DNA of 40,216 nt from Anaerosinus sp. (GTDB taxonomy: Bacteria; Bacillota; Negativicutes; JARBTT01): contig JARBTT010000006.1 in NCBI GenBank assembly GCA_029240055.1, positions 1-40,216 on the forward strand, given 5' to 3'. The notes below the pieces were generated by a model. The model had not been told where the DNA came from. It searched no databases and saw nothing but the letters and a program-made list of their open reading frames with translations. This document shows, one piece after another, positions 4,257 through 36,494 of this stretch. Each line of letters starts with the position of its first letter. Position 1 is the stretch's first letter. Made by a program: the position numbers and the translations under genes.

Positions 4257-4556
4257 ATGCTCCATAAAAAAGCGTTAATCATCCTAGTGGTATTACTACT
4301 AACAGTTACTGGTGTTTGGACGGTAACAGCCAGTTCTTTAATAGAGCAACATTCTGTGTTGTCGGGCACGGTGGTATCAACTGTAGCAGTTGGGACAAGT
4401 GTTAATGAAGGTGCAGAACTTGTGAGAGTAACAACAATTGCTGGTTCAGCTACAGCCGCTAGGGCAACGACGGCAGGGGTTGTGAAAGAAGTGACAGTCC
4501 AAAGGGGAAGTAGAATAAATAGTGGTGATGTTGTCGCTCGTATTGAGGCGCAATAG
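4257..4556 (+). CDS. Small membrane-anchored/secreted protein with a stand-alone biotinyl/lipoyl-like domain
   Basis: ATG 4257 preceded by AAGGGGG. N-terminal hydrophobic segment, then two half-motifs (GTVVSTVAVGTSVNEGAELVRV and AGVVKEVTVQRGSRINSGDVVARIEAQ). Confidence 0.7.
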   Translation: MLHKKALIILVVLLLTVTGVWTVTASSLIEQHSVLSGTVVSTVAVGTSVNEGAELVRVTTIAGSATAARATTAGVVKEVTVQRGSRINSGDVVARIEAQ

Positions 4557-4563
4557 AGAGAGG

Positions 4564-6390
4564 ATGAATTTTTTGTTGCAATGGCTAAAAAGAAGTTTGC
4601 TTATGCTTCTAGTAGTTTTATTACTACCAATGAGCAAGGTAAGTGCAACACCGGAGATTATGACAACAGATCAACTGCAACCCGGGATGCAAGGTATTGC
4701 TAAAACTGTCATTCAAGGAACCACCATTGACACTTTTGATATTGAAATCTTAGGTGTGGTGAAAGAAGGAATCGATAGTGATGGCAGAATTTTAGCAAAA
4801 GCATCTGGCTCAGTGATTGATAAAACTGGTGGAGTATTGCAAGGAATGAGTGGCAGCCCAGTTTATATTGATGGCAAGCTTGTCGGGGCAGTATCTGGCG
4901 GCTGGAAAGACATTGATAGCAGAACATGTATTATTACACCGATTGCCGATATGTTAAAACTATGGGATATGCCAGATTTGAAGAAAGATCAAAAAATTAA
5001 GCAAGTAGATCTGAAAGCAGTACTAAAAGCAGATCAACAAGCAGCAGATAAAACTAAAGAAGTAGATACAACTAAAGAGGTAGGAAAAGAGCTTGCTACA
5101 CCGTTGATGGCAGCAGGGTTTAGCGATGCGGCATTTAATATGCTAACAGAAAAATTGCAACCATTTAATATGGTGCCGTATGCGTCAAGTGGTGTGAACG
5201 GCGATTTTGCGCCAGTTACCATTGAACCTGGGAGTTCGATTGGCGCTCAATTGGTTCGCGGTGATTTTAGTTTAGCGGCAATTGGCACAGTAACAGCGGT
5301 GGAGGATGGAAAAGTATTAGCGTTTGGACATCCTTTCTTACGCAAAGGTAATGTGAATTACTTTATGACCGATGCAAATATTATCAGTACTGCCAGTGGT
5401 TTAAATACTGGGTTTAAAATTGGTGTTCCTGGTAATGCTGTCGGAGTTATTAATCAAGATAGAACCGCGGCGATTGCGGGTTCTCTTGGTAGATATCCAA
5501 GTGTGATTCCGCTTCAGGTTAATGTAACAGACAAACAATTTAATACGACCAAAAGCTATTCAATGCAGATAGCTTATGATGAACAATTAGCTGCAACTTT
5601 AGCAGCGACAATGGTTTATAATAGTATTGATCAGACAATAGATCGTACTGGTGAAGGTACGGCAAAAGTGAGTTTTGAGATCATGTCAAATGCTGCTCCA
5701 GGTGGTATTTTAAAACGTGATAATATGTATTATAATCCGCAAGATGTTGGTAAATTAGCGATTGCAGAAGTTTTCCAAGCTCTGGATATCTTGTGTGGCA
5801 ATAACCAAAATGAAACCGATATTGTTAGTGTAAAAGTAAATGTCGATATTGACCAAACAAGAAAAACTGCTTCGATTATCGAAGCAATTCCCGAAAAAAC
5901 CAGTGTGAAAGCTGGCGAAAAGGTAAATATTGCAGTAAAAATAAAACCATATCGGGAAAATGAAGTAATCCTTAAAGTTCCCTATACAGTACCGAAGCAG
6001 CAAGCCGCAGGTATGGCAGTGTTGGAAGTGCGCGGTGGTGGATTAATTTCTGTAGCACAATTATTAATGCAACAACAAGGTTTTGATCTTAGTGCACAGG
6101 AGGACAAGACGAAAACATTGGATATGATCATCAAAGAATTTTTAGATACCAATAAAAATAATGAAATCATCATTGATCAAATGGTTTCACCTGTTGATAT
6201 GACAAACCAAACAGCACCGCAAAAAGCACCAGTAGTCAAAAAAACTACTAAAGGTAACAAAGAATCTAAAGAAAATAATAAAACGGTAAAAAACAAACCA
6301 GAGGAAGAACCAAACAATACAAAATTTGCTACGGATTATATTATTGATAACGTTGTACAAACGTCAATTAATGTTGAACCAGTAAAATAA
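4564..6390 (+). CDS. SpoIVB/S55 peptidase-like domain protein
   Basis: ATG 4564 with AGAGAGG upstream. LQPGMQGIAKTVIQGTTIDTFDIEILGVVKEG, GVLQGMSGSPVYIDGKLVGAVSGGW and VLAFGHPFLRKGNVNYFMTDA are SpoIVB-peptidase-domain motifs. Confidence 0.85.
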   Translation: MNFLLQWLKRSLLMLLVVLLLPMSKVSATPEIMTTDQLQPGMQGIAKTVIQGTTIDTFDIEILGVVKEGIDSDGRILAKASGSVIDKTGGVLQGMSGSPVYIDGKLVGAVSGGWKDIDSRTCIITPIADMLKLWDMPDLKKDQKIKQVDLKAVLKADQQAADKTKEVDTTKEVGKELATPLMAAGFSDAAFNMLTEKLQPFNMVPYASSGVNGDFAPVTIEPGSSIGAQLVRGDFSLAAIGTVTAVEDGKVLAFGHPFLRKGNVNYFMTDANIISTASGLNTGFKIGVPGNAVGVINQDRTAAIAGSLGRYPSVIPLQVNVTDKQFNTTKSYSMQIAYDEQLAATLAATMVYNSIDQTIDRTGEGTAKVSFEIMSNAAPGGILKRDNMYYNPQDVGKLAIAEVFQALDILCGNNQNETDIVSVKVNVDIDQTRKTASIIEAIPEKTSVKAGEKVNIAVKIKPYRENEVILKVPYTVPKQQAAGMAVLEVRGGGLISVAQLLMQQQGFDLSAQEDKTKTLDMIIKEFLDTNKNNEIIIDQMVSPVDMTNQTAPQKAPVVKKTTKGNKESKENNKTVKNKPEEEPNNTKFATDYIIDNVVQTSINVEPVK

Positions 6391-6432: not shown

Positions 6433-6561
6433 TTAAAACAAATAAAACTAGTGAAAATTGCAGGGAATTGACGAAAAGTATTGAATATAATTCTAAAAAA
6501 TAGTAAACTAATATGTACTATTGTATATCTTAGTATTTATATATATGGGGGAGAAAATGCA

Positions 6562-7335
6562 ATGATGGTTGGTTACCTGGAAAAAATCGGCCGTAGTGTA
6601 CTAAGTTTTTTTGAAAACTTCGGTGCAGTGATGATGCTTATTTATGAAACAATTTGCCAATTAAAACATCCGCCTAATATAAAACACATCATCGTGCAAA
6701 TGTCACATTTAGGTGTTGATTCATTACCGATTGTAACACTTACCATTCTATTTACAGGGATGGTTATTACCTTGCAAACGGCGCATGAATTTATCAAATA
6801 TGGTGCGCAATCTACGGTTGGTGGCATTGTGGCAATCTCTATGGCACGTGAGCTTGCTCCAGTCTTAACTGGGGTTGTGGCTGCTGGGCGTGTTGGTGCT
6901 GCTATTACAGCAGAAATTAGCACGATGAAAGTAACAGAACAAATTGATGCTTTAAAGGTTATGGCAACCAATCCAGTTGGTTATTTGGTCGTACCAAGGC
7001 TAATTGCTTGTATGATTACGTTGCCGTTACTGGTCGTATTTGCCGATGTTATTGGTACTTTTGGTGGTTATTTGGTTGCTACTTTTTATTCTGGGATTAA
7101 CTCGGTAACCTATATGCAGTCAATAAATAATTTTATGGTCGTGCATGACGTTACTGGTGGGGTAATAAAATCAGTCTTTTTTGGGGCAATTATTGCAATT
7201 ATTGGGTGCTATCAAGGATTGAATGCACGAAATGGAGCAGTTGGAGTAGGGAAAGCGACAACAGGATCGGTAGTTAGTTCGATTATTATTATTTTTATTT
7301 TAAATTGTTTTCTATCCTTGATTTTGTATCGCTAG
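6562..7335 (+). CDS. mlaE: MlaE family phospholipid ABC transporter permease
   Basis: ATG 6562 with GGGGGAG upstream. LPIVTLTILFTGMVITLQTAHEF, ARELAPVLTGVVAAGRVGAAITAEISTMKVTEQIDALKVMATNPVGYLVVPRL are MlaE hallmarks. Confidence 0.95.
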   Translation: MMVGYLEKIGRSVLSFFENFGAVMMLIYETICQLKHPPNIKHIIVQMSHLGVDSLPIVTLTILFTGMVITLQTAHEFIKYGAQSTVGGIVAISMARELAPVLTGVVAAGRVGAAITAEISTMKVTEQIDALKVMATNPVGYLVVPRLIACMITLPLLVVFADVIGTFGGYLVATFYSGINSVTYMQSINNFMVVHDVTGGVIKSVFFGAIIAIIGCYQGLNARNGAVGVGKATTGSVVSSIIIIFILNCFLSLILYR

Positions 7336-7347
7336 AGGTGTGTTGGT

Positions 7348-8097
7348 GTGATTAAATTAGTAAATGTACATATGGAGTTCAAAAAAGAAAAAATACTTAA
7401 AAATATTAATTTAGAGGTCAAAAAGGGTGAAGTACTTGCCATTATCGGTGCAAGTGGCTCAGGTAAGAGCACGTTATTACGGTTGATGATTGGGTTGCTT
7501 CGCCCGACGAGTGGTCAAATTTGGGTAGCTGGGACTGAAATATCAAAATTACGTGAAGACCAGTTAGATAAAATTAGACTTCAAATGGGAATGGTATTTC
7601 AATATTCGGCATTGTTTGATTCGATGAGCGTTGGTGACAATGTAGCATTTGGCCTTCGTGAACATACCAAACTTAGTGAGTCTGAAATAAATAAAAAAGT
7701 CCAAGAAAAATTAAAATTAGTTGATTTAGAAGGCTATGAACATCGTCTACCTAATGAGTTGTCAGGAGGTATGAAAAAACGGATAAGCTTAGCAAGGGCA
7801 ATCGCCTTTGAACCAGATATTGTTTTGTATGACGAGCCAAGTGCTGGACTCGATCCTATTATGACAGCGAAGATTGATAGTTTGATTGTAAGCCTGCAAA
7901 AAGTATTAGGGGTTACCTCGGTCGTGGTAACGCACCATATGGAAAGTGCGTTTGCGATTGCTGATCGTATTGCCATGATTCATGAGGGAGAAATTACTCA
8001 GATTGGCAATGTTGAGGATATCAAAAATTCTAGTAATCCAGTTGTGCAAGATTTTATTAATGGCTCCAAAGGTATGACAAAGGAGGTTCATAGATGA
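7348..8097 (+). CDS. mlaF: MlaF family ABC transporter ATPase
   Basis: Walker A GASGSGKST, signature LSGGMKKRISLARAIAFEPDIVLYDEPSAGLDPI; adjacent to mlaE and mlaD. Confidence 0.95.
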   Translation: MIKLVNVHMEFKKEKILKNINLEVKKGEVLAIIGASGSGKSTLLRLMIGLLRPTSGQIWVAGTEISKLREDQLDKIRLQMGMVFQYSALFDSMSVGDNVAFGLREHTKLSESEINKKVQEKLKLVDLEGYEHRLPNELSGGMKKRISLARAIAFEPDIVLYDEPSAGLDPIMTAKIDSLIVSLQKVLGVTSVVVTHHMESAFAIADRIAMIHEGEITQIGNVEDIKNSSNPVVQDFINGSKGMTKEVHR

Positions 8098-9365
8098 CAA
8101 CAGAAGCTAAAGTAGGCGCATTTACAATCTTGGGATTGGCGCTGTTAACCTATATCATCGTTCATCTTGGTGGAATTGGCGTTGGTGATAAAGGCTATCC
8201 TGTTGATGTTCTATTTAATGAAGTCAATGGATTGAAACCTGGTAATCTTGTTCGTTATGCTGGTGTAGATATTGGCAAAGTAGATGACGTTCATGCAGAG
8301 CCCGATGGAGCTAAAGTCAGACTTCTAATTAATTCTGGGGCTAAAATTCCCGATACTGCAATTGTTGGGATTGGTGCAGATGGATTAATGGGAGAAAAAT
8401 ATATCAGTATATCTCCAGGTGCTGAAACAAAGGGATTTTTAAAACCTGGCGATGCTATTACTGGAAAAGATCAGCAAGGCCTAGATCGCTTATTGGTGAC
8501 AGCGGATAGTGTACTGCTGGACATTCAAAAATTAGTGCAATCATTAAATACAGTCTTTGGTGATGAACGTGTACAAAATGCACTGATTGATTCTGCTGTG
8601 AGTGTAAAAGAACTTACTGAGAATTTAAATCGAATGAGCGCTGTCATGGCACGGATGGCAGTTAATAATGAACAAGATGTAAAGGCGATGGTGACGAATC
8701 TGAAATTTATGTCGGGTAGTATGATGAACGCTGCTGGTCGTGTTGACCATATGCTTGCTACAGTAGATAACAATGGCCAAACGGCGACGGATTTGCGAGA
8801 AGCGATTGCCAATCTGAATGCTACCAGTAAACGCGTAGAAAATATGGCCGTTTCAATTGAAGGATTTGTGACTGATCCAGAAACAGCAGAAAATCTAAAA
8901 ACTACGCTTCGTAATGCACGCGGCGTTAGTGAAAAGGCCAATCGTATGATGAACCAGGTGTCGAATATCAAAGCAGAAACCAGCGTAGAAACACTCTATA
9001 GTGCAGGTTCAAAGGATTATAAGACCAATGCTGATATCAAAATCCATACTTCACCGAATGACTTTGTTTTATTGGGAGTGAATGATATCGGTGAAGGAAA
9101 TAAAACAAATGTACAAATTGGTTCTGGTAGTGATAAATTTGCAAGTAGGGTTGGGCTTATTGATAGTAAAGCTGGCGTCGGTTTGGATGCAAAAATAAAC
9201 AATGAATTTCGCATGTCAGTCGATGCTTACGATCCAAATGATTTAAGAGTAAAACTTAGAGCGCAATATGAAGTTGCTCCAGAAACTTTTATTGTGGGAG
9301 AAACCGATAGTATCAATAAAAGTGAGGGGCGAGAGTCTTTTGTAGGCATGCGTCATTCATTTTAA
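8094..9365 (+). CDS. mlaD: MlaD/MCE-domain protein with C-terminal beta-rich extension
   Basis: TTEAKVGAFTILGLALLTYIIVHLGG, VDVLFNEVNGLKPGNLVRYAGVDIGKVDDV, GLMGEKYISISPGAE (MCE). 4-nt ATGA overlap with mlaF. C-terminal ~125 residues alternate in a strand-like pattern and end ...FVGMRHSF. Confidence 0.94.
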   Translation: MTTEAKVGAFTILGLALLTYIIVHLGGIGVGDKGYPVDVLFNEVNGLKPGNLVRYAGVDIGKVDDVHAEPDGAKVRLLINSGAKIPDTAIVGIGADGLMGEKYISISPGAETKGFLKPGDAITGKDQQGLDRLLVTADSVLLDIQKLVQSLNTVFGDERVQNALIDSAVSVKELTENLNRMSAVMARMAVNNEQDVKAMVTNLKFMSGSMMNAAGRVDHMLATVDNNGQTATDLREAIANLNATSKRVENMAVSIEGFVTDPETAENLKTTLRNARGVSEKANRMMNQVSNIKAETSVETLYSAGSKDYKTNADIKIHTSPNDFVLLGVNDIGEGNKTNVQIGSGSDKFASRVGLIDSKAGVGLDAKINNEFRMSVDAYDPNDLRVKLRAQYEVAPETFIVGETDSINKSEGRESFVGMRHSF

Positions 9366-15241: not shown

Positions 15242-15256
15242 TTGGGGTTGATACAA

Positions 15257-15895
15257 ATGGAACTTAGTGAATATTTAAAAGAACTAAAAAAAATAAAAAT
15301 GTTAAATATAGAAGAAGAAACTAAGCTTTGGCGAGAGTATAAAATAAATCAAGATATTAAAGCCCGACAAGTTTTAATTGAAAGTTATCAACCTCTTGTA
15401 TTTAAAGCTGTTATGCAATTAAAAGTAAACGATAATGTCATGGATATTGTGCAAGAAGGAACGGTTGGTTTGATTGAAGCCGTAGAAAATTATAACCATG
15501 AGCGTAGTGTGGCGTTTAGTCTATATGCACTGCACCGTATTCGTGGGCGGATGCTTAACTTCCTACAAAAGGAAGGAGGTGCTGAGTTGACTTATATTGA
15601 CAGACCAATGTATAATGGGGACAATGTCACGACTTTAGGTGAAAATATTATCGATTTGGCACCAACAGTGTCAAATCAGGTCGAACAAAGCTTTTTAGTG
15701 GATCAATTAAATCATGCAATACAAAGGTTGCCGGAAAAGGAGCAACTAGTTTTGCAAAGTGTGTATATGAAAGATCAAGATGTAAAAGAAGTTGCAGAAA
15801 GTTTAGATCTCAGTACCACGCATATCTATCGCTTGCAGAAACGAGGGATTAAGAGGATTCGTGGAATGTTATCAAATCTGATGAAACATTGGTAG
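15257..15895 (+). CDS. Sigma-70 family RNA polymerase sigma factor (regions 2 and 4)
   Basis: ATG 15257. ARQVLIESYQPLVFKAVMQL..NVMDIVQEGTVGLIEAVENYNHERSVAFSLYALHRIRGRMLNFL (region 2); QRLPEKEQLVLQSVYMKDQDVKEVAESLDLSTTHIYRLQKRGIKRIRGML (region 4). Confidence 0.9.
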   Translation: MELSEYLKELKKIKMLNIEEETKLWREYKINQDIKARQVLIESYQPLVFKAVMQLKVNDNVMDIVQEGTVGLIEAVENYNHERSVAFSLYALHRIRGRMLNFLQKEGGAELTYIDRPMYNGDNVTTLGENIIDLAPTVSNQVEQSFLVDQLNHAIQRLPEKEQLVLQSVYMKDQDVKEVAESLDLSTTHIYRLQKRGIKRIRGMLSNLMKHW

Positions 15896-19956: not shown

Positions 19957-20427
19957 ATGATAAAATTTGAAAAAAAACAAATCAAAGTTATTAGTGTAGC
20001 GATTGTACTTGCATTTGTATTTAGTGTAGTTGCTATTGGGGTATCTCAATCAGGTAAAGGCTTTGCTAGTGCAGCTGGATCTTCTTCTAATGTTGGAGTT
20101 GTAAATCAACAGATGATTGTTTCTCAACACCCAGATATGGCGGCAGCAAAAGAAGCAATGCAAAAAGAAGTAGAACAAGCAAAAGCAGATTTCGAGTCTA
20201 AATCCGCTAATATGAATGACCAAGATAAACAAGCATATTATCAACAATTGCAACAACGTTTAGCAAGCAAAGAAAAAGAGTTGATTTCTCCTATTATGGA
20301 TAAAGTAGAAGCTACGATTAAAAGTGTCGCAGATGCAAAAGGATTATCTGTTGTTCTTGATAAAAGCAATGTAGTTTACGGTGGACAAGATATTACTGAC
20401 GAAGTTGTAAAAAAGCTTTCTAAATAA
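19957..20427 (+). CDS. Skp/OmpH family periplasmic chaperone-like protein (copy 1)
   Basis: N-terminal export signal, VGVVNQQMIVSQHPDM, charged coiled coil, C-terminal AKGLSVVLDKSNVVYGGQDITDEVVKKL. Confidence 0.88.
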   Translation: MIKFEKKQIKVISVAIVLAFVFSVVAIGVSQSGKGFASAAGSSSNVGVVNQQMIVSQHPDMAAAKEAMQKEVEQAKADFESKSANMNDQDKQAYYQQLQQRLASKEKELISPIMDKVEATIKSVADAKGLSVVLDKSNVVYGGQDITDEVVKKLSK

Positions 20428-20463
20428 AATTGGTAGCGTAATTAAAAATACTGAATTTAGCAT

Positions 20464-20498
20464 GTACCGAGCAAGGGCAACCGCGCTCGGTACTTTAT
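20464..20498 (+). terminator. Putative intrinsic terminator or processing hairpin after the first OmpH gene
   Basis: GTACCGAGC-N12-GCTCGGTAC followed by TTTATT. Confidence 0.65.
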
Positions 20499-20514
20499 TA
20501 GAAAGGGTGGTTTC

Positions 20515-21477
20515 ATGGCGAGTCGAAAAATTTTGATTGCTAGTATCCTTGTTTTAGCTGTTATCGCATTTGCTGGATATTTATTCAAGGCTACAGTTGG
20601 TGACTCAAAAAACCCTAAAGGTTCGACAGCTGTAGCTACCCAAACAGATATTGGTATTATCGATATGAATAAGGCATTAAAAGCACATCCGAAATATCAA
20701 GACTTAGTGCGATTAAAAAAAGAATTGAATTCATTGACTGCCCAAAATGAAGCAGCACAAAACTTTACAATTGACAATCAGGCACCATTGGTAAATCAAG
20801 GTTCGCTTGATGATGCAATGCAGCAAAAACAAAATGAAAAATTAATTGCGAAACACGCTGAAATCAGTGAAAGATTAAAAAGGAAAAATAAAGAACTGAC
20901 AGATCAATTTGGAAAAGAATTTGAAGCTGAAGTAGCGACGATTAATACGTATTATCAACCGATCCTTTTCGATTTGAAATTGAAGGCGGAAACGGCTAAT
21001 ATTACTGAGGAAGCAAGAAAAGAACTAAATAACAAACGAATGAATTTAGAGAGTGAGCGCAACCAGAAAATAGCGCAAAAACAGCAAGAATTTAACAATA
21101 AGCTGAATACTATCATGCAAGATGAAACTAAAAAGGGTGAAATAGAGCTTGCTGAAGAGCGTAAGCAGATAGAAGAAGAAGCAAAGACAGAAAGAAATGT
21201 GAAGCAAGAAGAAATAGATACTCGTAATAACCAGGCGATGACCAATCAGAATGAAGCTATTAAATTAGATATCAATCAGGTAACAAAAGGTAAAGAAACT
21301 ATTATTTATAAAGAGCAAGAAATTGCTGTATTAGAAGAAAGTATGAACAATGATATTGCTAGTAAAGTTGCGAAAATAGCAATTGAAAAAAATTTAGCAA
21401 CTGTATTAGCGGTTGTTCAGGTTAATGTCAATGCAATAGACATTACGGATCTTGTTATTGCTGAGTTTAAGAAGTAA
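20515..21477 (+). CDS. Skp/OmpH-like protein, extended coiled-coil form (copy 2)
   Basis: IGIIDMNKALKAHPKYQDLVRLKKEL, long charged coiled coil, C-terminal EKNLATVLAVVQVNVNAIDITDLVIAEFKK resembling copies 1 and 3. Confidence 0.8.
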   Translation: MASRKILIASILVLAVIAFAGYLFKATVGDSKNPKGSTAVATQTDIGIIDMNKALKAHPKYQDLVRLKKELNSLTAQNEAAQNFTIDNQAPLVNQGSLDDAMQQKQNEKLIAKHAEISERLKRKNKELTDQFGKEFEAEVATINTYYQPILFDLKLKAETANITEEARKELNNKRMNLESERNQKIAQKQQEFNNKLNTIMQDETKKGEIELAEERKQIEEEAKTERNVKQEEIDTRNNQAMTNQNEAIKLDINQVTKGKETIIYKEQEIAVLEESMNNDIASKVAKIAIEKNLATVLAVVQVNVNAIDITDLVIAEFKK

Positions 21478-21533
21478 TGGAAAAGTGTATAATAGAAATG
21501 AAACTATTTAATTTTTTAAGGGAGGCTTCGTAA

Positions 21534-21953
21534 GTGAAATTACAAGCAAAGCGTATGGTAACACTGCTTATGGTAGTAGTGATGTCAGTAATGGTGTCAG
21601 GCTGCTTTAACGCGCAAAAAACAGGGGTTGTTGATGTACAAAGAGTAATGAAGGATAGTGCTAAGGTACAACAGTTCCAAGAGCAATTAAATACAAGTGG
21701 TAAAGATTTAACTCAAAAACTCGAACAAGAAAAAGGAACGCTATCAGCTGAGCAGTTTCAAAAACGTCAGCAAGAAGTATATGCCGATTTTGTAAAACAA
21801 AAACAAGACTTAGAAAATCAAATGGATACTTTAATCAATCAGGCATTGGCAGATATCGCGAAAGAGAAAGGTCTATCCGTTGTATTATATAAAAATAATG
21901 TAGCACAGGGTGGCATAGATGTAACGGATGATGTCATTCAAAAGTTGCAGTAG
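21534..21953 (+). CDS. Skp/OmpH family protein, predicted lipoprotein (copy 3)
   Basis: Lipobox-like VMVSGC after a hydrophobic stretch; TGVVDVQRVMKDS; C-terminal EKGLSVVLYKNNVAQGGIDVTDDVIQKLQ. Confidence 0.87.
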   Translation: MKLQAKRMVTLLMVVVMSVMVSGCFNAQKTGVVDVQRVMKDSAKVQQFQEQLNTSGKDLTQKLEQEKGTLSAEQFQKRQQEVYADFVKQKQDLENQMDTLINQALADIAKEKGLSVVLYKNNVAQGGIDVTDDVIQKLQ

Positions 21954-23690: not shown

Positions 23691-23718
23691 TAAGGGGATT
23701 ATGGCTGGAGTTGATTCG

Positions 23719-24570
23719 ATGACTTATTTATTGATTAAATTGTTTAGTAAGATTGTTTGCCTGTTACCGTTCAAAATGCAGCAGATGCTTGGAAAGTTTA
23801 TTGGTCACGTTACATGGGGGATTGTGCCTGGAAAACGTAAATTGATGGCAATAGAAAATATTGTTTTAGCATTAGGGGTTGAAGAGTTAGAAGCAAGGCA
23901 GATTGCCAAGCATAGTTGGACTCGTTTTGGTAAAATGCTGATTGAAGTCATGGTATTTCCGAAGCTCAAAAAAGATATCAATTGCTATGTGAAGATTGAA
24001 GGTAGAGAAAATATTGACAAAGCACTTGATTATGGGAAAGGCATAGTGCTTCCAACCGCCCACAGTGGTAATTGGGAACTGATGGGCGGGGCACTGGCAT
24101 TAAATGGCTACCCCATTGTCGGTGTTGCCCAAAAACAAGCCAATGGTGATATGGATCGATTGATTAATGAATATCGGGCTTTAGTTGGTATCCATGTCAC
24201 TTATAAAAATGGCGTGCGCGAAATGATTAAAATGTTAGGTCAGGGTAGTGTGATTGCGCTTTTAATGGATCAAGATGCGGGACGTGATGGTATAGAATTG
24301 GAGTTTTTCGGCAGGAAAGCTTCTTGCCCACAAGGACCAGCTTTCTTGGCTCGAATTAATAATGCTCCACTTCTGCCAACCTTTATTACCGAAAATAGTG
24401 ATGGAACACATACGATCACCATCAAAGAGCCATTTTTTGTCACGAAAACAGAAAATAAGCAAGAGGATATTAAGAAAACGACGGAAAAGTTAACACGAAT
24501 GATTGAAGAGCATATCAGAAAACACCCAATAGAATGGTTTTGGATGCATAATAGATGGAAGCAACGATAA
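23719..24570 (+). CDS. Lipid A biosynthesis (LpxL/HtrB-type) acyltransferase; start uncertain (23701 or 23719)
   Basis: TAHSGNWELMGGALALNGYPIVGVAQKQ, MDQDAGRDGIELEFFGRKASCPQGPAFLARI, HIRKHPIEWFWMHNRWKQR. Confidence 0.9.
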   Translation: MTYLLIKLFSKIVCLLPFKMQQMLGKFIGHVTWGIVPGKRKLMAIENIVLALGVEELEARQIAKHSWTRFGKMLIEVMVFPKLKKDINCYVKIEGRENIDKALDYGKGIVLPTAHSGNWELMGGALALNGYPIVGVAQKQANGDMDRLINEYRALVGIHVTYKNGVREMIKMLGQGSVIALLMDQDAGRDGIELEFFGRKASCPQGPAFLARINNAPLLPTFITENSDGTHTITIKEPFFVTKTENKQEDIKKTTEKLTRMIEEHIRKHPIEWFWMHNRWKQR

Positions 24571-24669: not shown

Positions 24670-26988
24670 ATGAAATTTTTTAAACGCGATATTATATTAC
24701 TTTTACTTGTTAGTATTTTATTGGGGGCGGCTTTTGCCAAAGCAGTTTCGTATGGAGCAAATTTTTACTTTAAAGAAAAATTAGTAAGTTTAGTTGGTGA
24801 TTATGGAGAATACGATCTGATTGTACAAATACGCGAAGACAACAAAGCAGATGGGCAGATGCAATTAGAAAAGATTATCAACGAAAGTTTAGCGGGGGCA
24901 AAGTATAAAGAAGGGCCAGTCATTACGCAAAAAGCTAATTTCTTTGTGGCGTTACCAAGTGAATACAAAAATAAAGCGGTGTATGAAAATTTAGAACGAA
25001 TTTTTTCGAGTATTCCTGGCGGTGTAGGTATTAGCATTGTGACAGAACCAAAGCTAAATATTCGCGGAGTACCATCAGGTGCTGTAGAGATGATTATAGA
25101 CCAATTGCAAGCAATTCCCGGCGTTGACTTTGTGTATCGGAGTGGCTCGAGCATTGGTGTAGTGTTAGCTGGAGCAGAAAAAATTGCTACTATAACAGCA
25201 CAAGTGGAGGCAATTCTTAGTGCGAATAAAATGGTAGAAGTAAGTTTTCCTGCTGGTTTGGAGCCGGAGAATCCGGTGCTGTTGGCAGAAAATATCGTAA
25301 CTGCTTTATATAAAAATTTACAGCCTAAGATTGCAAAATATGTATCAGTAGATAGTAGCAATGATGATATTGCTCATCTGACAAGTACCATGCAAGAGTT
25401 GCGCAAATTTCTAAAAGCATATCAAACAAAAGTTTTTGTAACACCAGGAAAGAATGTGCAATTAGCAAAAGGAAATACTGTAGTATTGCAGGGAGAAGGA
25501 GAGAAAAAAGTAGAAGTTGGTGATGTCCTGCAAAGAAATAATATTGCTGTGTCATTAACCGAAGCAAATGCGAATGGTTCCTATACTGGAGTGATTACGC
25601 AAGGAGACGGAAGCAACTTAAAAAGTAATCTTGTGTATTTGCTTGATAAAGATAAGGTGACAGCTTATGCTGGAACAGCGACGTGGCAAAGTCCTCGAGA
25701 TGAGCTTCTTTATGCGTTATCGCAAACGGAAAAAATAACGAAAGAATTGCCTAGTTTTGCTAAGGAAAGCAATACGGTAAGCAAATTAGCTTTAGATACC
25801 TTGCAAAGTTATAATGAGAATGAAACAAATGTGCAGAGAACCTTAAGCAATATGGATGATGCGGTCATCTCAATTAATAGTGCCACTGAAAAATTGGAAG
25901 CCGTTGATGTACAAGCAATTCAAGATCGCATTGATAGCTCATCAAAGACAATGACAAAGTTGCTAGGAACGCTGCGATTAGTACGTTTGATTAATCCCGA
26001 TGTATCACTAGCCATGGGAACGTTAAAAGAAACACAAGAGAAAATGAATGCCTTCGGAGAATTGCTTAATGGGCTTAATAGTGTCAATGAACAAGCTATT
26101 GCGACAAAAAATATTTTAGCAACAATGGCTGATAATGGAAATAGATTAAATAGCTCATTGCAAGCATTCAATCAAGGAAAAACAAAAGGAAATTTAATTG
26201 ATGCAAATAAAAGATTGACTCAATTGGCAAACACTGATTTTACAAATGTTAGTGAAGCACTCCAAACGTTACAAGTATCCGCCCCCAAATTGAATGATGA
26301 AGAAATGAATAGTTCCATCACCTTAATGGATAAGATGATCAATGGTCAAGTCATACCAAATAAGAGATTGCAGATTATGATAGATCATTCTATCTGGCTA
26401 GAAAATATTAAGCCAATTATTTATGGGGCTGTTGGGCATCAAAACATTGGCATTTTTGATTCAAATATTGGCGTCATCGAACCGAATGTATACTTACAAG
26501 CTTATCAGGTGTTAAACGAAGTACAAGCAGTACTTGCTGGGCTTACCGCATTTGTGGTTACATTGGCTTTATTGGCGTTTGACCATACTGCAGTTATGTC
26601 AGCTTTGCGTAATCAAAGATTAAGTAACCGTGTGCAAAAACAGCAAAAAGGTATGATCCAAGTTAGTAAACAGTTAATAAAAAGTATAGCTTATCGTGAA
26701 AATGTCTATGGAATGGTGGTAGGGGCTATTTTGCTTAGTTTTATATTTTATTTTTCCGGAGCGGGAATCCCTTACGTTAGTTGGTATCTAGTTCCTATTA
26801 TTGGGATGCTTTTTGGCTTATTGATCGCTTTGATTACGGAAAAAATTACACCGGTTTCGGTAGAAGAAATATTTGCTGGAAAATCACTAGGAATGTCTTT
26901 TACTGAAATCATGCGTGAAATTGTCATTCCAAATGGAAGACCAGGGATACTAGAACGCTTAAATCGGCAGAAGCTAAAATTCAAATAA
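24670..26988 (+). CDS. Large membrane protein, putative ABC transporter permease of unusual architecture (TM + ~560-aa extracytoplasmic region + 3 TM)
   Basis: ATG 24670 preceded by GCGGGG. TM1 IILLLLVSILLGAAFAKAV; alpha/beta region then helical Asn/Gln/Thr-rich region; TM2-4 AVLAGLTAFVVTLALLAF, VYGMVVGAILLSFIFYFSGAG, YLVPIIGMLFGLLIALI. C-terminal SLGMSFTEIMREIVIPNGRPGIL is EAA-loop-like. 20 nt upstream of an ABC ATPase. Confidence 0.7.
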   Translation: MKFFKRDIILLLLVSILLGAAFAKAVSYGANFYFKEKLVSLVGDYGEYDLIVQIREDNKADGQMQLEKIINESLAGAKYKEGPVITQKANFFVALPSEYKNKAVYENLERIFSSIPGGVGISIVTEPKLNIRGVPSGAVEMIIDQLQAIPGVDFVYRSGSSIGVVLAGAEKIATITAQVEAILSANKMVEVSFPAGLEPENPVLLAENIVTALYKNLQPKIAKYVSVDSSNDDIAHLTSTMQELRKFLKAYQTKVFVTPGKNVQLAKGNTVVLQGEGEKKVEVGDVLQRNNIAVSLTEANANGSYTGVITQGDGSNLKSNLVYLLDKDKVTAYAGTATWQSPRDELLYALSQTEKITKELPSFAKESNTVSKLALDTLQSYNENETNVQRTLSNMDDAVISINSATEKLEAVDVQAIQDRIDSSSKTMTKLLGTLRLVRLINPDVSLAMGTLKETQEKMNAFGELLNGLNSVNEQAIATKNILATMADNGNRLNSSLQAFNQGKTKGNLIDANKRLTQLANTDFTNVSEALQTLQVSAPKLNDEEMNSSITLMDKMINGQVIPNKRLQIMIDHSIWLENIKPIIYGAVGHQNIGIFDSNIGVIEPNVYLQAYQVLNEVQAVLAGLTAFVVTLALLAFDHTAVMSALRNQRLSNRVQKQQKGMIQVSKQLIKSIAYRENVYGMVVGAILLSFIFYFSGAGIPYVSWYLVPIIGMLFGLLIALITEKITPVSVEEIFAGKSLGMSFTEIMREIVIPNGRPGILERLNRQKLKFK

Positions 26989-27008: not shown

Positions 27009-27770
27009 ATGTTTGCAATTTCTAATCTTTCAAAACATTTTGGTGGAGTTCAAGCTGTTGATCATATTAATTTAACGGCAAAGCAAGGTGAGACCGTCGT
27101 TTTAATGGGACCCTCTGGTTGTGGAAAATCGACGACAATTCGCATGATTAATCGCTTAATTGAGCCAGATGAAGGAAGTATCTTCTTTGATTCCATTGAT
27201 GTTACAACGCTGAATGTAACTGAGCTACTTGCTATGCGTAAACGAATCGGTTTTGTTTTTCAGCATTTCAATTTAATAGCGCGGTTGTCTGCGATTGAAA
27301 ATGTGATGCTAGGCTTGGTTATGGGAAATGTGCCAAGGGAAGTGGCTTATGAAAAAGCAAAAATAGCATTAATTAAAGTAGGCTTAGAAAAAGAACTACA
27401 AAAGAAGCCGAATGTACTGTCTGGGGGACAGCAACAACGCGTTGCCATTGCTAGAGCGCTTGTGTTAGAACCAGAACTAATCCTGTGGGATGAACCAACG
27501 GCTTCGCTTGATCCTATGCTAGTTCGAGAGGTTCTCCTTATCATGGAAGAACTTGCAAAATATAGAGCGAGTACAATGCTCGTCGTTACCCATGAATTAT
27601 CGTTTGCTTTAAATGTAGCGGATAAGATCATTTTAATGGATAAAGGAAAGATTGTTGAAACAGGAGCAACCCAAGATATTTTTCTTAATCCGACCTCAAA
27701 TGTAGGACAAAATTATAAAGCATTAATTGAATATCAAATGAATGCTAGTAAGCTTGTTTTGGTAAAATAA
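27009..27770 (+). CDS. ABC transporter ATPase, GlnQ/polar-amino-acid-like
   Basis: Walker A GPSGCGKST, Q-loop FQHFNLI, signature LSGGQQQRVAIARALVLEPELILWDEPTASLDP, H-loop VVTHELSFALNVADKIILMDKGKIVETG. Confidence 0.93.
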   Translation: MFAISNLSKHFGGVQAVDHINLTAKQGETVVLMGPSGCGKSTTIRMINRLIEPDEGSIFFDSIDVTTLNVTELLAMRKRIGFVFQHFNLIARLSAIENVMLGLVMGNVPREVAYEKAKIALIKVGLEKELQKKPNVLSGGQQQRVAIARALVLEPELILWDEPTASLDPMLVREVLLIMEELAKYRASTMLVVTHELSFALNVADKIILMDKGKIVETGATQDIFLNPTSNVGQNYKALIEYQMNASKLVLVK

Positions 27771-27819: not shown

Positions 27820-27854
27820 AAACAAAGGTTATCATGTCAGGAGGATTTTTATTT

Positions 27855-28682
27855 ATGCAGTACCAAACGACAATTGAAAAAGATGTAACCTATACTGGGA
27901 TTGGCTTACATTCGGGCTGTGAGGTTACAATTAGGTTAAAGCCTGCTCCAGTAAATACGGGCATTGTGTTTATTCGTGTTGATTTAGAAGATTCACCACG
28001 GGTTGCTGCGATTTCTGACAATGTAACAGCTACCGTTAGAGCAACAACGATTGAATCAGGAACGGCAAAGGTTTTTACAATAGAACATTTGATGTCAGCT
28101 TTTCATGCGCTACAAATAGATAATTGCTATATTGAAATTGATGCCGTAGAACCACCAGTAACTGATGGTAGTGCTTTGGTTTTCTTTGAGTTAATCCAAA
28201 GTGCTGGTGTTAGAGAGCAAGAAGAAGAAAGTAAGGAAATCGTCATTGATCAAACTTATATTGTAAGACAAGATGATAAGTTTGTAATGATATTACCTTA
28301 CGATGGCTTTAGAGTCAGCTTTACTTCTGTCAATCCAAGTGAGCTGGTTGGGATTCAATATGCAGATTATGAGATTACAGCAGAAATTTTTCATAAAGAA
28401 ATAGCACCGGCTAGAACCATTGCCTATGAACAAGAAATAGAGGCCTTGCAAAAAATGGGCTTGGGGTTAGGTGGAACACCAGAAAACGTCATTGTATATA
28501 ATGATGAAAAATGGTTAACGGAACTTAGATTTGTAGATGAATTGGTACGCCATAAGGTACTCGATATCATTGGTGATATTCGTCTGGTTGGACGGGTACG
28601 CGGACATATCGTCGCTGTAAAATCTAGCCATGCCATTAATACAGAACTTGCGAAGCAAATATCCGCTGGGCTTAGTAAGTAA
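27855..28682 (+). CDS. lpxC: UDP-3-O-acyl-N-acetylglucosamine deacetylase LpxC
   Basis: ATG 27855 with CAGGAGG upstream. TTIEKDVTYTGIGLHSG, FTIEHLMSAFHALQIDNCYIEIDAVEPPVTDGSA, RHKVLDIIGDIRLVGRVRGHIVAVKSSHAINTEL. Confidence 0.97.
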   Translation: MQYQTTIEKDVTYTGIGLHSGCEVTIRLKPAPVNTGIVFIRVDLEDSPRVAAISDNVTATVRATTIESGTAKVFTIEHLMSAFHALQIDNCYIEIDAVEPPVTDGSALVFFELIQSAGVREQEEESKEIVIDQTYIVRQDDKFVMILPYDGFRVSFTSVNPSELVGIQYADYEITAEIFHKEIAPARTIAYEQEIEALQKMGLGLGGTPENVIVYNDEKWLTELRFVDELVRHKVLDIIGDIRLVGRVRGHIVAVKSSHAINTELAKQISAGLSK

Positions 28683-34019: not shown

Positions 34020-36494
34020 ATGCAGATTATATACAACATAGTGGCGATCATACTGGTAATATTAGCGATACCAGTATTTATGGTACGAGCTATGCGTGAA
34101 AAGGGATTTGTCGAGAGGCTGAGGCAAAGCTTTGGTTTCTTACATAAAGATGCCTTAGAACCAGTAGCAAATAAAGGTTGTATCTGGATACACGCAGCTT
34201 CTGTCGGTGAAATTGTTGCTGCCAGTCCGCTAATCAAGGAATTTCGTTTAGAATTTCCTGAAAAACCGATTTTAGTGTCAGTGGTTACGAATAATGGCTA
34301 TGAAATGGCAAATAGGATCGTCAAAGATGCGGATAGTATTATTTATTTTCCGCTTGATTTGCCATGGCTTAGTAGTGGCGTAGTCAAAAAAGTAATGCCA
34401 AGTGTGTTTTTACCAGTAGAAACAGAGTTATGGCCAAATTTCTTAAAAGCAGCACGCAAATATCATATTCCTGTTATGATGGTAAATGGTAGAATTAGTG
34501 ATAAAAGCGTAAATCGCTACCATCATCTGCGTGGTGTTTTAAAAGATATGATTGGTACTGTGAAAAAGTTTTGTATGCAATCACCCATAGATGCAAAATA
34601 TATTATAAAACTCGGGGCAAATCCTGATTTAGTTACGATAACTGGTAATACGAAATTTGATCAAACTTATACGGATGTAGCGCCAGAAGAAAAACAAAAA
34701 TTGCTTGATGAAATGGGTCTTAATGGTTCAGAAGCGATTTTGCTTGCTGGGAGCACGCATAAAGGCGAAGAAAATTTGATTCTAGAAGCATTTCGTCAGC
34801 TAAAGAAGGAAATCCCTACAGCAAAATTGATTATTGCTCCTCGTGATATTTTACGTGTTGGTGAAATTACCGAAACTGCTAAAATTTTTGGGATGAAAGT
34901 GAAAACACGGACGGCGTTAAATAAAAGCGTAGAAACTGGACATGACGTTGTTCTTTTAGATACGATTGGTGAACTCGGAAAAGTCTATAGTATTGGTGAT
35001 GTTATTTATGTTGGTGGTAGTTTAGTATCACATGGCGGGCATAATATATTAGAACCAGCGGCACATGGCAAAGCGATTATTGTTGGACCCAATATGTTTA
35101 ATTTTAAAGATACCTATGCTTTATTTTCAAACCGTAATGCTTGCATTACGGCTCACGATGCCGCTGAGCTTGGTTCTAATATTTTAAAACTTTTTCGTAA
35201 TCCTGAGTTAAGGCTAAAAATGGAAACAGAAACGCTGGCAATCGTAAAAGAAAACCGAGGGGCTTCAAGAAAAAGTGCAGTACTGCTAAGAGAAATGTTA
35301 GAAACTTATGAACAAAAAAAAGCAAGAAGCCCGAAGAGAACACTACGCCAGATCGAAAACTTTCAGACTTATTTATATAAACTGGTGCATGGTGACGAAA
35401 ATGGTTTTTTTCCTAATATTTTTTTGAGTATTTTGTATGCTTTTTCTTTTGTGTATTGTCAATTGATTGAAATGACGATATCACTATATCGCTCGGGAAT
35501 TTTTAAACAATACAGATTAGATTGTCATGTGATTAGTTTGGGGAATATTACTGTTGGTGGGACAGGAAAAACACCAACGGCACAGCGACTTGCAGCTGCA
35601 ATTCGTGATATGGGGTATCGAGTGGTTATTTTAAACCGTGGTTATCGGGCAAAATGGAAAGGTAAAGTAGGCGTTGTGTCTGATGGTAAGAGAATTTATA
35701 TGTCAGCAGCGGAAGCTGGCGATGAAGCATTTTTACTTGCAAAAAATTTGCCTAAAGTACCAGTACTAATTGGGGCAGATCGGGCAGAGACCGGTAAATA
35801 TGCCGTGGAAAAATTAAATGCCCAAGTTGTTATCTTAGATGATGGGTATCAGCATTGGCGTTTACTCCGAGACTTAGATATCCTGCTAGTAGATGCGATT
35901 AACGTCTTTGGTAATAACTACATGTTACCACGGGGTACGTTACGAGAGCCACTTTCACATTTAAATCGTGCCGATGTTTGTCTATTAACTAAGGTTGACC
36001 AAGCGGATAAAAAAGCTTGTGAAACCATAAAAGAAACGGTAGCTCGGTATAATGACCACGCCCTTGTCGTTGAAAGTATTCATAAACCGCGTTGCTTTAT
36101 TGAAATTGCTGATTGGTATAAGGATACCCCTAGCAAGAGTATTGATGTTAGTACCTTGAAAAATAAGCAAGTAATTGCGGTATCGGCAATTGGAAACCCA
36201 GCATCCTTTGAGCAGACAATTAGCGATATTGGTGCAGTAGTGATCGATAGTGTCCGTTTTCCCGATCATCATGACTATACAATGGCAGAAATGCAAGCTG
36301 TTCTGGACAAAGCAATGGAGCAAGGGGCAGAGGCAATCATTATTACGGATAAAGATGCGGTGAAAATACCAGCAGAAATTATCCATTCCAATCGGCAATT
36401 GCCAGTTTATATTCTAAGCATCGAAATTAGTTTCCAAGCTGGATATGATAACTTTATGAACCTAATCAGCGAAAGCTTGAAAAATAAAAAATAA
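34020..36494 (+). CDS. Bifunctional Kdo transferase (WaaA/KdtA) - tetraacyldisaccharide 4'-kinase (LpxK) fusion
   Basis: N-half: WIHAASVGEIVAASPLIKEF, ETELWPNFLKAARKYHIPVMMVNGRISDKS, GGSLVSHGGHNILEPAAHGKAIIVGPNMFNFKD (WaaA). C-half: HVISLGNITVGGTGKTPTAQRLA, ILNRGYRAKWKG, DEAFLLAKNLPKVPVLIGADR, ILDDGYQHWRLLRDLDILLVDA (LpxK). One continuous 824-codon frame. Confidence 0.95.
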   Translation: MQIIYNIVAIILVILAIPVFMVRAMREKGFVERLRQSFGFLHKDALEPVANKGCIWIHAASVGEIVAASPLIKEFRLEFPEKPILVSVVTNNGYEMANRIVKDADSIIYFPLDLPWLSSGVVKKVMPSVFLPVETELWPNFLKAARKYHIPVMMVNGRISDKSVNRYHHLRGVLKDMIGTVKKFCMQSPIDAKYIIKLGANPDLVTITGNTKFDQTYTDVAPEEKQKLLDEMGLNGSEAILLAGSTHKGEENLILEAFRQLKKEIPTAKLIIAPRDILRVGEITETAKIFGMKVKTRTALNKSVETGHDVVLLDTIGELGKVYSIGDVIYVGGSLVSHGGHNILEPAAHGKAIIVGPNMFNFKDTYALFSNRNACITAHDAAELGSNILKLFRNPELRLKMETETLAIVKENRGASRKSAVLLREMLETYEQKKARSPKRTLRQIENFQTYLYKLVHGDENGFFPNIFLSILYAFSFVYCQLIEMTISLYRSGIFKQYRLDCHVISLGNITVGGTGKTPTAQRLAAAIRDMGYRVVILNRGYRAKWKGKVGVVSDGKRIYMSAAEAGDEAFLLAKNLPKVPVLIGADRAETGKYAVEKLNAQVVILDDGYQHWRLLRDLDILLVDAINVFGNNYMLPRGTLREPLSHLNRADVCLLTKVDQADKKACETIKETVARYNDHALVVESIHKPRCFIEIADWYKDTPSKSIDVSTLKNKQVIAVSAIGNPASFEQTISDIGAVVIDSVRFPDHHDYTMAEMQAVLDKAMEQGAEAIIITDKDAVKIPAEIIHSNRQLPVYILSIEISFQAGYDNFMNLISESLKNKK

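Follow-up and report, generated by a model that had tools for sequence, protein, structure and literature searches.

An importer-like EAA loop at the C-terminus of a four-helix ABC permease encoded in the outer-membrane gene cluster of diderm Bacillota

In type I ABC importers, the EAA loop is flanked by TM helices on both sides, within a core of five or more. Can such a loop also form the very end of a permease, behind its last TM helix? This question is raised by a DNA stretch of 40,216 nucleotides from Anaerosinus sp. (hereafter the window), whose forward strand encodes a membrane protein of 772 residues (24670 to 26988) followed by a cognate ABC ATPase of 253 residues (27009 to 27770). An earlier note on this DNA had proposed that the membrane protein combines an importer-type coupling loop with a MacB-like overall topology, and this combination is supported here by the profile of the loop and by a four-helix layout. 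Whole-protein searches returned no Pfam or NCBIfam match passing cut-off and nothing meaningful in the PDB, and Foldseek with the model of the 772-residue protein gave weak matches only, to RND-type (MmpL5, SecDF) and coiled-coil proteins. Permease and ATPase are best read as an ABC transporter of a previously unnamed family, of which we found no description in the literature searched (subscription journals lay outside its coverage).

Hydropathy averaged over 59 homologs places four TM helices in the permease: TM1 at residues 8–26 (24691 to 24747), TM2 at 620–638 (26527 to 26583), TM3 at 682–700 (26713 to 26769), and TM4, the last one, at 703–721 (26776 to 26832). The helices of the AlphaFold2 (AF2) model agree with them, TM1 falling within a helix of residues 2–42. 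According to both AF2 and hydropathy, TM1 and TM2 enclose a predicted periplasmic region of about 590 residues (24751 to 26514), with an alpha/beta N-terminal part at around residues 50–340 and long helical hairpins at around 342–557 in the AF2 secondary structure. The candidate coupling loop spans residues 731–762 (26860 to 26955). Its motif, VEEIFAGKSLGMSFTEIMREIVIPNGRPGIL (residues 731–761; 26860 to 26952), sits after TM4, the protein ends 11 residues further on, and no TM helix follows. Its placement at the extreme C-terminus past the last TM helix is thus confirmed by the translation of the reading frame, by hydropathy over the 59 homologs and by the AF2 helices. In the AF2 model, the segment adopts a helix-turn-helix (731–739 and 744–752), fitting the expectation for an EAA loop.

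The end of the protein is also its best-conserved part, with a mean entropy of 0.53–0.69 bits for residues 736–772 versus 0.81–2.37 elsewhere among 59 full-length Negativicutes sequences. The pattern G-x9-[I/V]-x-x-P-x-x-[R/K]-P is kept in 85/85 homologs, i.e. G at position 0, [I/V] at +10, P at +13 and P at +17, and it should be read with the search pattern in mind, which demanded G, [VIL], P and [RK]P at that spacing and was present in all 85 sequences. Alanine occupies position −5 in 84 of the 85, and serine position +2 in 57 of the 59 homologs from the class (Negativicutes). The earlier note had staked its proposal on conservation of the LG-x-S...I-P residues among orthologs, and the G, S, [I/V] and P among them are conserved to this extent. 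The literal E-A-A stands only in part: the alanine at −5 is there, but the position of the glutamate is F735 in the window protein. In Negativicutes, this position is mostly hydrophobic or T/S and the canonical glutamate is absent, the invariant glutamate of the motif being E733, two residues before F735. Among deeper homologs, 10 of 26 have the canonical glutamate at −6, as in loci L119 (IEAGEALGLSKTELYRQVIVP) and L125 (VEAARAAGLSLPAVLEYVVAP). L119–L121 form a branch of 616–657 residues with this glutamate, a diverged periplasmic domain and a strong match mainly in the last ∼90 residues. A missing canonical glutamate is not disqualifying, since in E. coli the DppB loop carries the label ‘RTA’ and that of DppC ‘TAS’ (PMC12136057).

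How closely does this segment resemble importer loops? Profile alignment of the C-terminal residues against importer EAA regions gave a strong match: with hhalign, the 44-column C-terminal block scored 43.9 (P 3e-8) with a set of 20 importer permeases, of which 19 come from the same genome and one from a same-class genome, and aligned exactly on their EAA loops. The maximum among 150 column shuffles was 19.3, other 44-column windows of the permease reached at most 20.4 except for one overlapping the motif, and a wider C-terminal profile with deep homologs scored 53.1. When C-terminal segments were scanned singly, PF00528 was found at E ≤ 0.1 in 28/56 (best 8.3e-6; next family 4/56), and, among matches with a range listed, all end at the EAA region. 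The PF00528 gathering cut-off of 26.4 was not reached, the window segment scoring 16.9–17.2 bits and the individually listed homolog segments at most 22.5, and the TM helices alone gave no significant hhalign match to importers. The loop is importer-like; the match does not extend beyond it, and no importer likeness could be demonstrated for the TM helices. The earlier assignment to PAAT-type importers holds at the level of type I importers but not at that of the subtype, as Pst-like, ModB- and MetI-like loops are equally close. The permease shares with type I importers (PAAT, MetI, Pst, ModB) an EAA loop with the G-x9-[I/V]-x-x-P spacing and a PAAT-sister ATPase, whereas it differs from them by its four TM helices, none of them past the loop, and by its large periplasmic domain. 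Among the genes of the window covered by the Pfam scans, no substrate-binding protein partner was detected.

The ATPase is encoded directly downstream of the permease at nearly all homologous loci. In a tree of ATPases adjoining importer and FtsX/MacB permeases, plus MlaF, the ATPases of the family form one clade (98/93), which is sister to the PAAT ATPases (99/97) and separate from the FtsX/MacB ATPases of the MacB/LolD/FtsE type (97/93). The neighboring ATPase had been described as GlnQ-like, which is right as far as this sister relationship goes; however, it is not nested in the PAAT clade, and its score with the GlnQ equivalog is 231 bits versus a cut-off of 379. Locus L125 (2872 to 5775, minus strand) is a natural permease-ATPase fusion of 967 residues with a literal E-A-A in the loop. 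In Foldseek, the fusion model matched through its ATPase domain only among the matches listed, and the best solved-structure matches of this domain include PAAT ATPases. The EAA segment of the fusion model (655–695) has a pLDDT of ∼78–89 versus ∼41–67 in the isolated window protein, a comparison that spans different proteins and alignments as well as models of low pTM (0.41 and 0.51; fusion 0.51). The higher pLDDT in the fusion fits, indirectly, a docking of the loop on the ATPase.

The layout of four helices, the first two separated by a large extracytoplasmic domain, as seen by hydropathy and AF2, is that of MacB, LolCE and FtsX. To this extent the topology is MacB-like, as had been proposed, but PF02687 was not matched and profile comparison with MacB/FtsX gave nothing significant. 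MacB has a major coupling helix in its TM2–TM3 loop and a minor one at the C-terminus (PMC5985334), which gives a coupling element after TM4 a precedent; the C-terminal element of the window permease recalls this minor helix. The permease might then be a type VII mechanotransmission protein of the MacB/FtsX kind whose C-terminal minor coupling helix resembles an EAA loop by chance, and the best alignment of both families, although insignificant, puts the end of TM4 and the next proline in register. We consider this unlikely. The TM region reaches only E ∼0.1 in hhalign, the loop scores 15.1 with MacB/FtsX versus 43.9 with importers, and the ATPase belongs to another clade than those of MacB, LolCE and FtsX. 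Moreover, the TM2–TM3 loop is the least conserved stretch of the permease (mean entropy 2.37 in the 59 full-length Negativicutes sequences), so that a major coupling helix at this place, as in MacB, is not supported by the sequences. Since the TM2–TM3 loop is least and the C-terminus most conserved, their coupling roles appear to be reversed with respect to MacB, the conserved motif being C-terminal.

A quite unlikely alternative relates the membrane half to the FetB/UPF0014 permeases (PF03649), as a truncated version in which a TM pair with its coupling loop is grafted behind a periplasmic domain. One homolog segment scored 22.3 bits for PF03649 (cut-off 22.6), and a colinear profile alignment of 90 columns covers TM3, TM4 and the loop (P 4.8e-4). 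However, a single segment of 56 matches UPF0014 at E ≤ 0.1 versus 28 of 56 for PF00528, the loop alone fits importers far better, and FetB has more TM helices, some of them past the loop, and lacks the large periplasmic domain of the window permease. The colinear similarity is weak and may serve as a lead only. MlaE (PF02405; score 11.8, no Pfam match) and MsbA (score 10.9) were also tried as loop sources and rejected. Finally, the loop could be convergent because the TM helices preceding it give no significant importer match, and its docking is something that we infer; yet a structural or regulatory tail that does not dock on the ATPase, such as a lipid- or protein-binding helix, is very unlikely given that G and P are invariant in EAA spacing across the whole phylum, that an importer-class ATPase is consistently paired with the permease, and that no alternative conserved cytoplasmic segment is available for docking.

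What the transporter may serve is suggested by its surroundings. By Pfam scans of its genes, the window is an outer-membrane gene cluster of diderm Bacillota, in the order FlgH/I, MlaE-MlaF-MlaD, TamB, BamA, OmpH-like genes, LpxD, YjbH-like, LpxL-like, the permease-ATPase pair, LpxC, FabZ, LpxA, LpxI, LpxB, MsbA-like and a KdtA-LpxK fusion, where LpxD, FabZ, LpxA, LpxI and LpxB are named from sequence and gene order, and LpxC also by its PF03331 match. The pair shares with MlaFEDB/MlaEFD the character of an ABC system encoded in an outer-membrane lipid gene cluster, but the MlaE loop does not match and the window has its own MlaEFD at 6481 to 9365. Several other genes deserve mention in their own right. 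Directly before MlaE, a protein of 622 residues (4522 to 6390) has a partial SpoIVB peptidase S55 domain. A Sigma-70 family factor between TamB and BamA (15242 to 15895), with no specific equivalog above cut-off, is a possible cluster-specific regulator. LpxD is preceded by a run of three short secreted proteins, OmpH/Skp-like or related (19957 to 21953), the middle one (320 residues) with no Pfam match, and the KDO transferase (Glycos_transf_N, Glycos_transf_1) is fused with LpxK into one protein of 824 residues (34020 to 36494).

The immediate neighbors of the pair are a lipid A acyltransferase gene upstream (LpxL-like; 23701 to 24570, plus strand) and lpxC downstream (27834 to 28682, plus strand), the latter being conserved in this place across the phylum. 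Outside the class, LpxC is present in 63 of the 77 genomes with the transporter; lpxC stands directly behind it in all 61 judgeable ones, the remaining two of the 63 having the genes on separate contigs. In these 61 of 63, it lies mostly 0.8–1.3 kb past the permease, i.e. the length of the ATPase gene (for the fused-type locus L126, the distance was taken from the permease/ATPase reading frames). Even in a lineage that lacks LpxC, the pair has LptA/LptC, FabZ, LpxB, an ABC ATPase and LptF/G around it. Conversely, five Negativicutes without the pair have a gap of 42–198 bp between LpxL and lpxC, the rest being colinear. The pair is a discrete cassette within the outer-membrane gene cluster. Many genomes of the class have second, more diverged permease-ATPase copies outside this cluster (L076–L090, L104–L108), whose neighbors are not conserved beyond one genus-level group.

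A search of genome contigs with the permease as query gave no relatives; homologs came from the genome draws of the class and the phylum. Of the 381 class genomes, 54 have a homolog (58 raw matches minus four weak cross-matches to PAAT binding-protein/permease fusions, which were left out), as do 77 further genomes among the 399 drawn from the phylum (81 raw matches, from which the window's own genome and three PAAT permeases were left out). Taking a genome with Spo0A as that of a ‘spore-former’, a designation that refers to the gene and not to observed spores, the transporter and Spo0A occur together in 51 class genomes, the transporter alone in 3 (all ≤85% complete), Spo0A alone in 5 and neither in 322. 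Among LpxC-positive genomes of the phylum draw, 52 of 59 with Spo0A and 1 of 12 without it have the transporter. The Fisher values of these associations (1e-53 and 1e-7) ignore phylogeny and are not to be taken at face value. In the LpxC tree, the joint absence of transporter and Spo0A falls in two places at least and probably in three, and Spo0A occurs without the transporter in three separate lineages. Nearly all occurrences of the transporter are in Bacillota that have both Spo0A and outer-membrane genes, which makes a link to sporulation suggestive. A basic outer membrane can do without the pair, since non-sporulating Negativicutes with outer membranes lack it.

We favor, with a probability of about 0.72, a new family of four-helix ABC transporters in which the C-terminal EAA tail docks on a PAAT-sister ATPase and which works in the lipid pathway of the outer membrane in diderm Bacillota. 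This reading is built on the motif, its conservation, the gene pairing, the ATPase clade, synteny and distribution, from which we infer docking, stroke, direction and substrate. The permease would consist of an N-terminal TM helix, a large periplasmic domain, three further TM helices and a short cytoplasmic tail acting as a functional coupling loop of type I importer style on the adjoining ATPase. Most likely, two ATPases closing on ATP would push or pull on the C-terminal EAA tails and so move TM4, whose motion would be passed on by way of TM2/TM3 and TM1 to the periplasmic domain. Because the loop follows the last TM helix, the force would come from a C-terminal handle on TM4 in place of the inter-TM loop of importers or the TM2–TM3 loop of MacB. 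The transporter, inserted between LpxL and LpxC, would most likely move or extract a component on the periplasmic side. With the periplasmic part so big and no importer TM core visible, classical import is less likely than a mechanotransmission or extraction mode of the MacB or LolCDE kind. The substrate is most likely a lipid or lipid-linked envelope component, as judged from gene context only.

In diderm spore-formers, an outer spore membrane that is inner-membrane-like becomes the outer membrane by a mechanism stated as unknown (PMC7985256). It is tempting to speculate, at rather long odds, that spore-forming diderm Bacillota have in the pair a dedicated envelope transporter, driven by its C-terminal EAA tail, which assists this conversion of the outer spore membrane at outgrowth. 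The near restriction to genomes with Spo0A leaves the rebuilding of the outer membrane at germination open to a knockout test. Negativicutes have outer membranes but no LolA/LolB (PMC5007114), and undiscovered lipid-trafficking systems have been postulated for Veillonella parvula (PMC10665443); the pair is a further ABC system of the lipid gene cluster besides MlaEFD and MsbA. Coupling through a C-terminal EAA tail is a layout for which no description was found for ABC permeases in the literature searched. Should the predicted coupling through the tail hold true, an importer EAA loop would be able to act as a handle at the end of a protein, in the absence of the importer TM core, which would bear on the evolution of ABC permeases. 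Of greater interest than the loop is the family as such, an unnamed ABC transporter, strictly syntenic in the outer-membrane gene cluster and ending in an importer-type tail.
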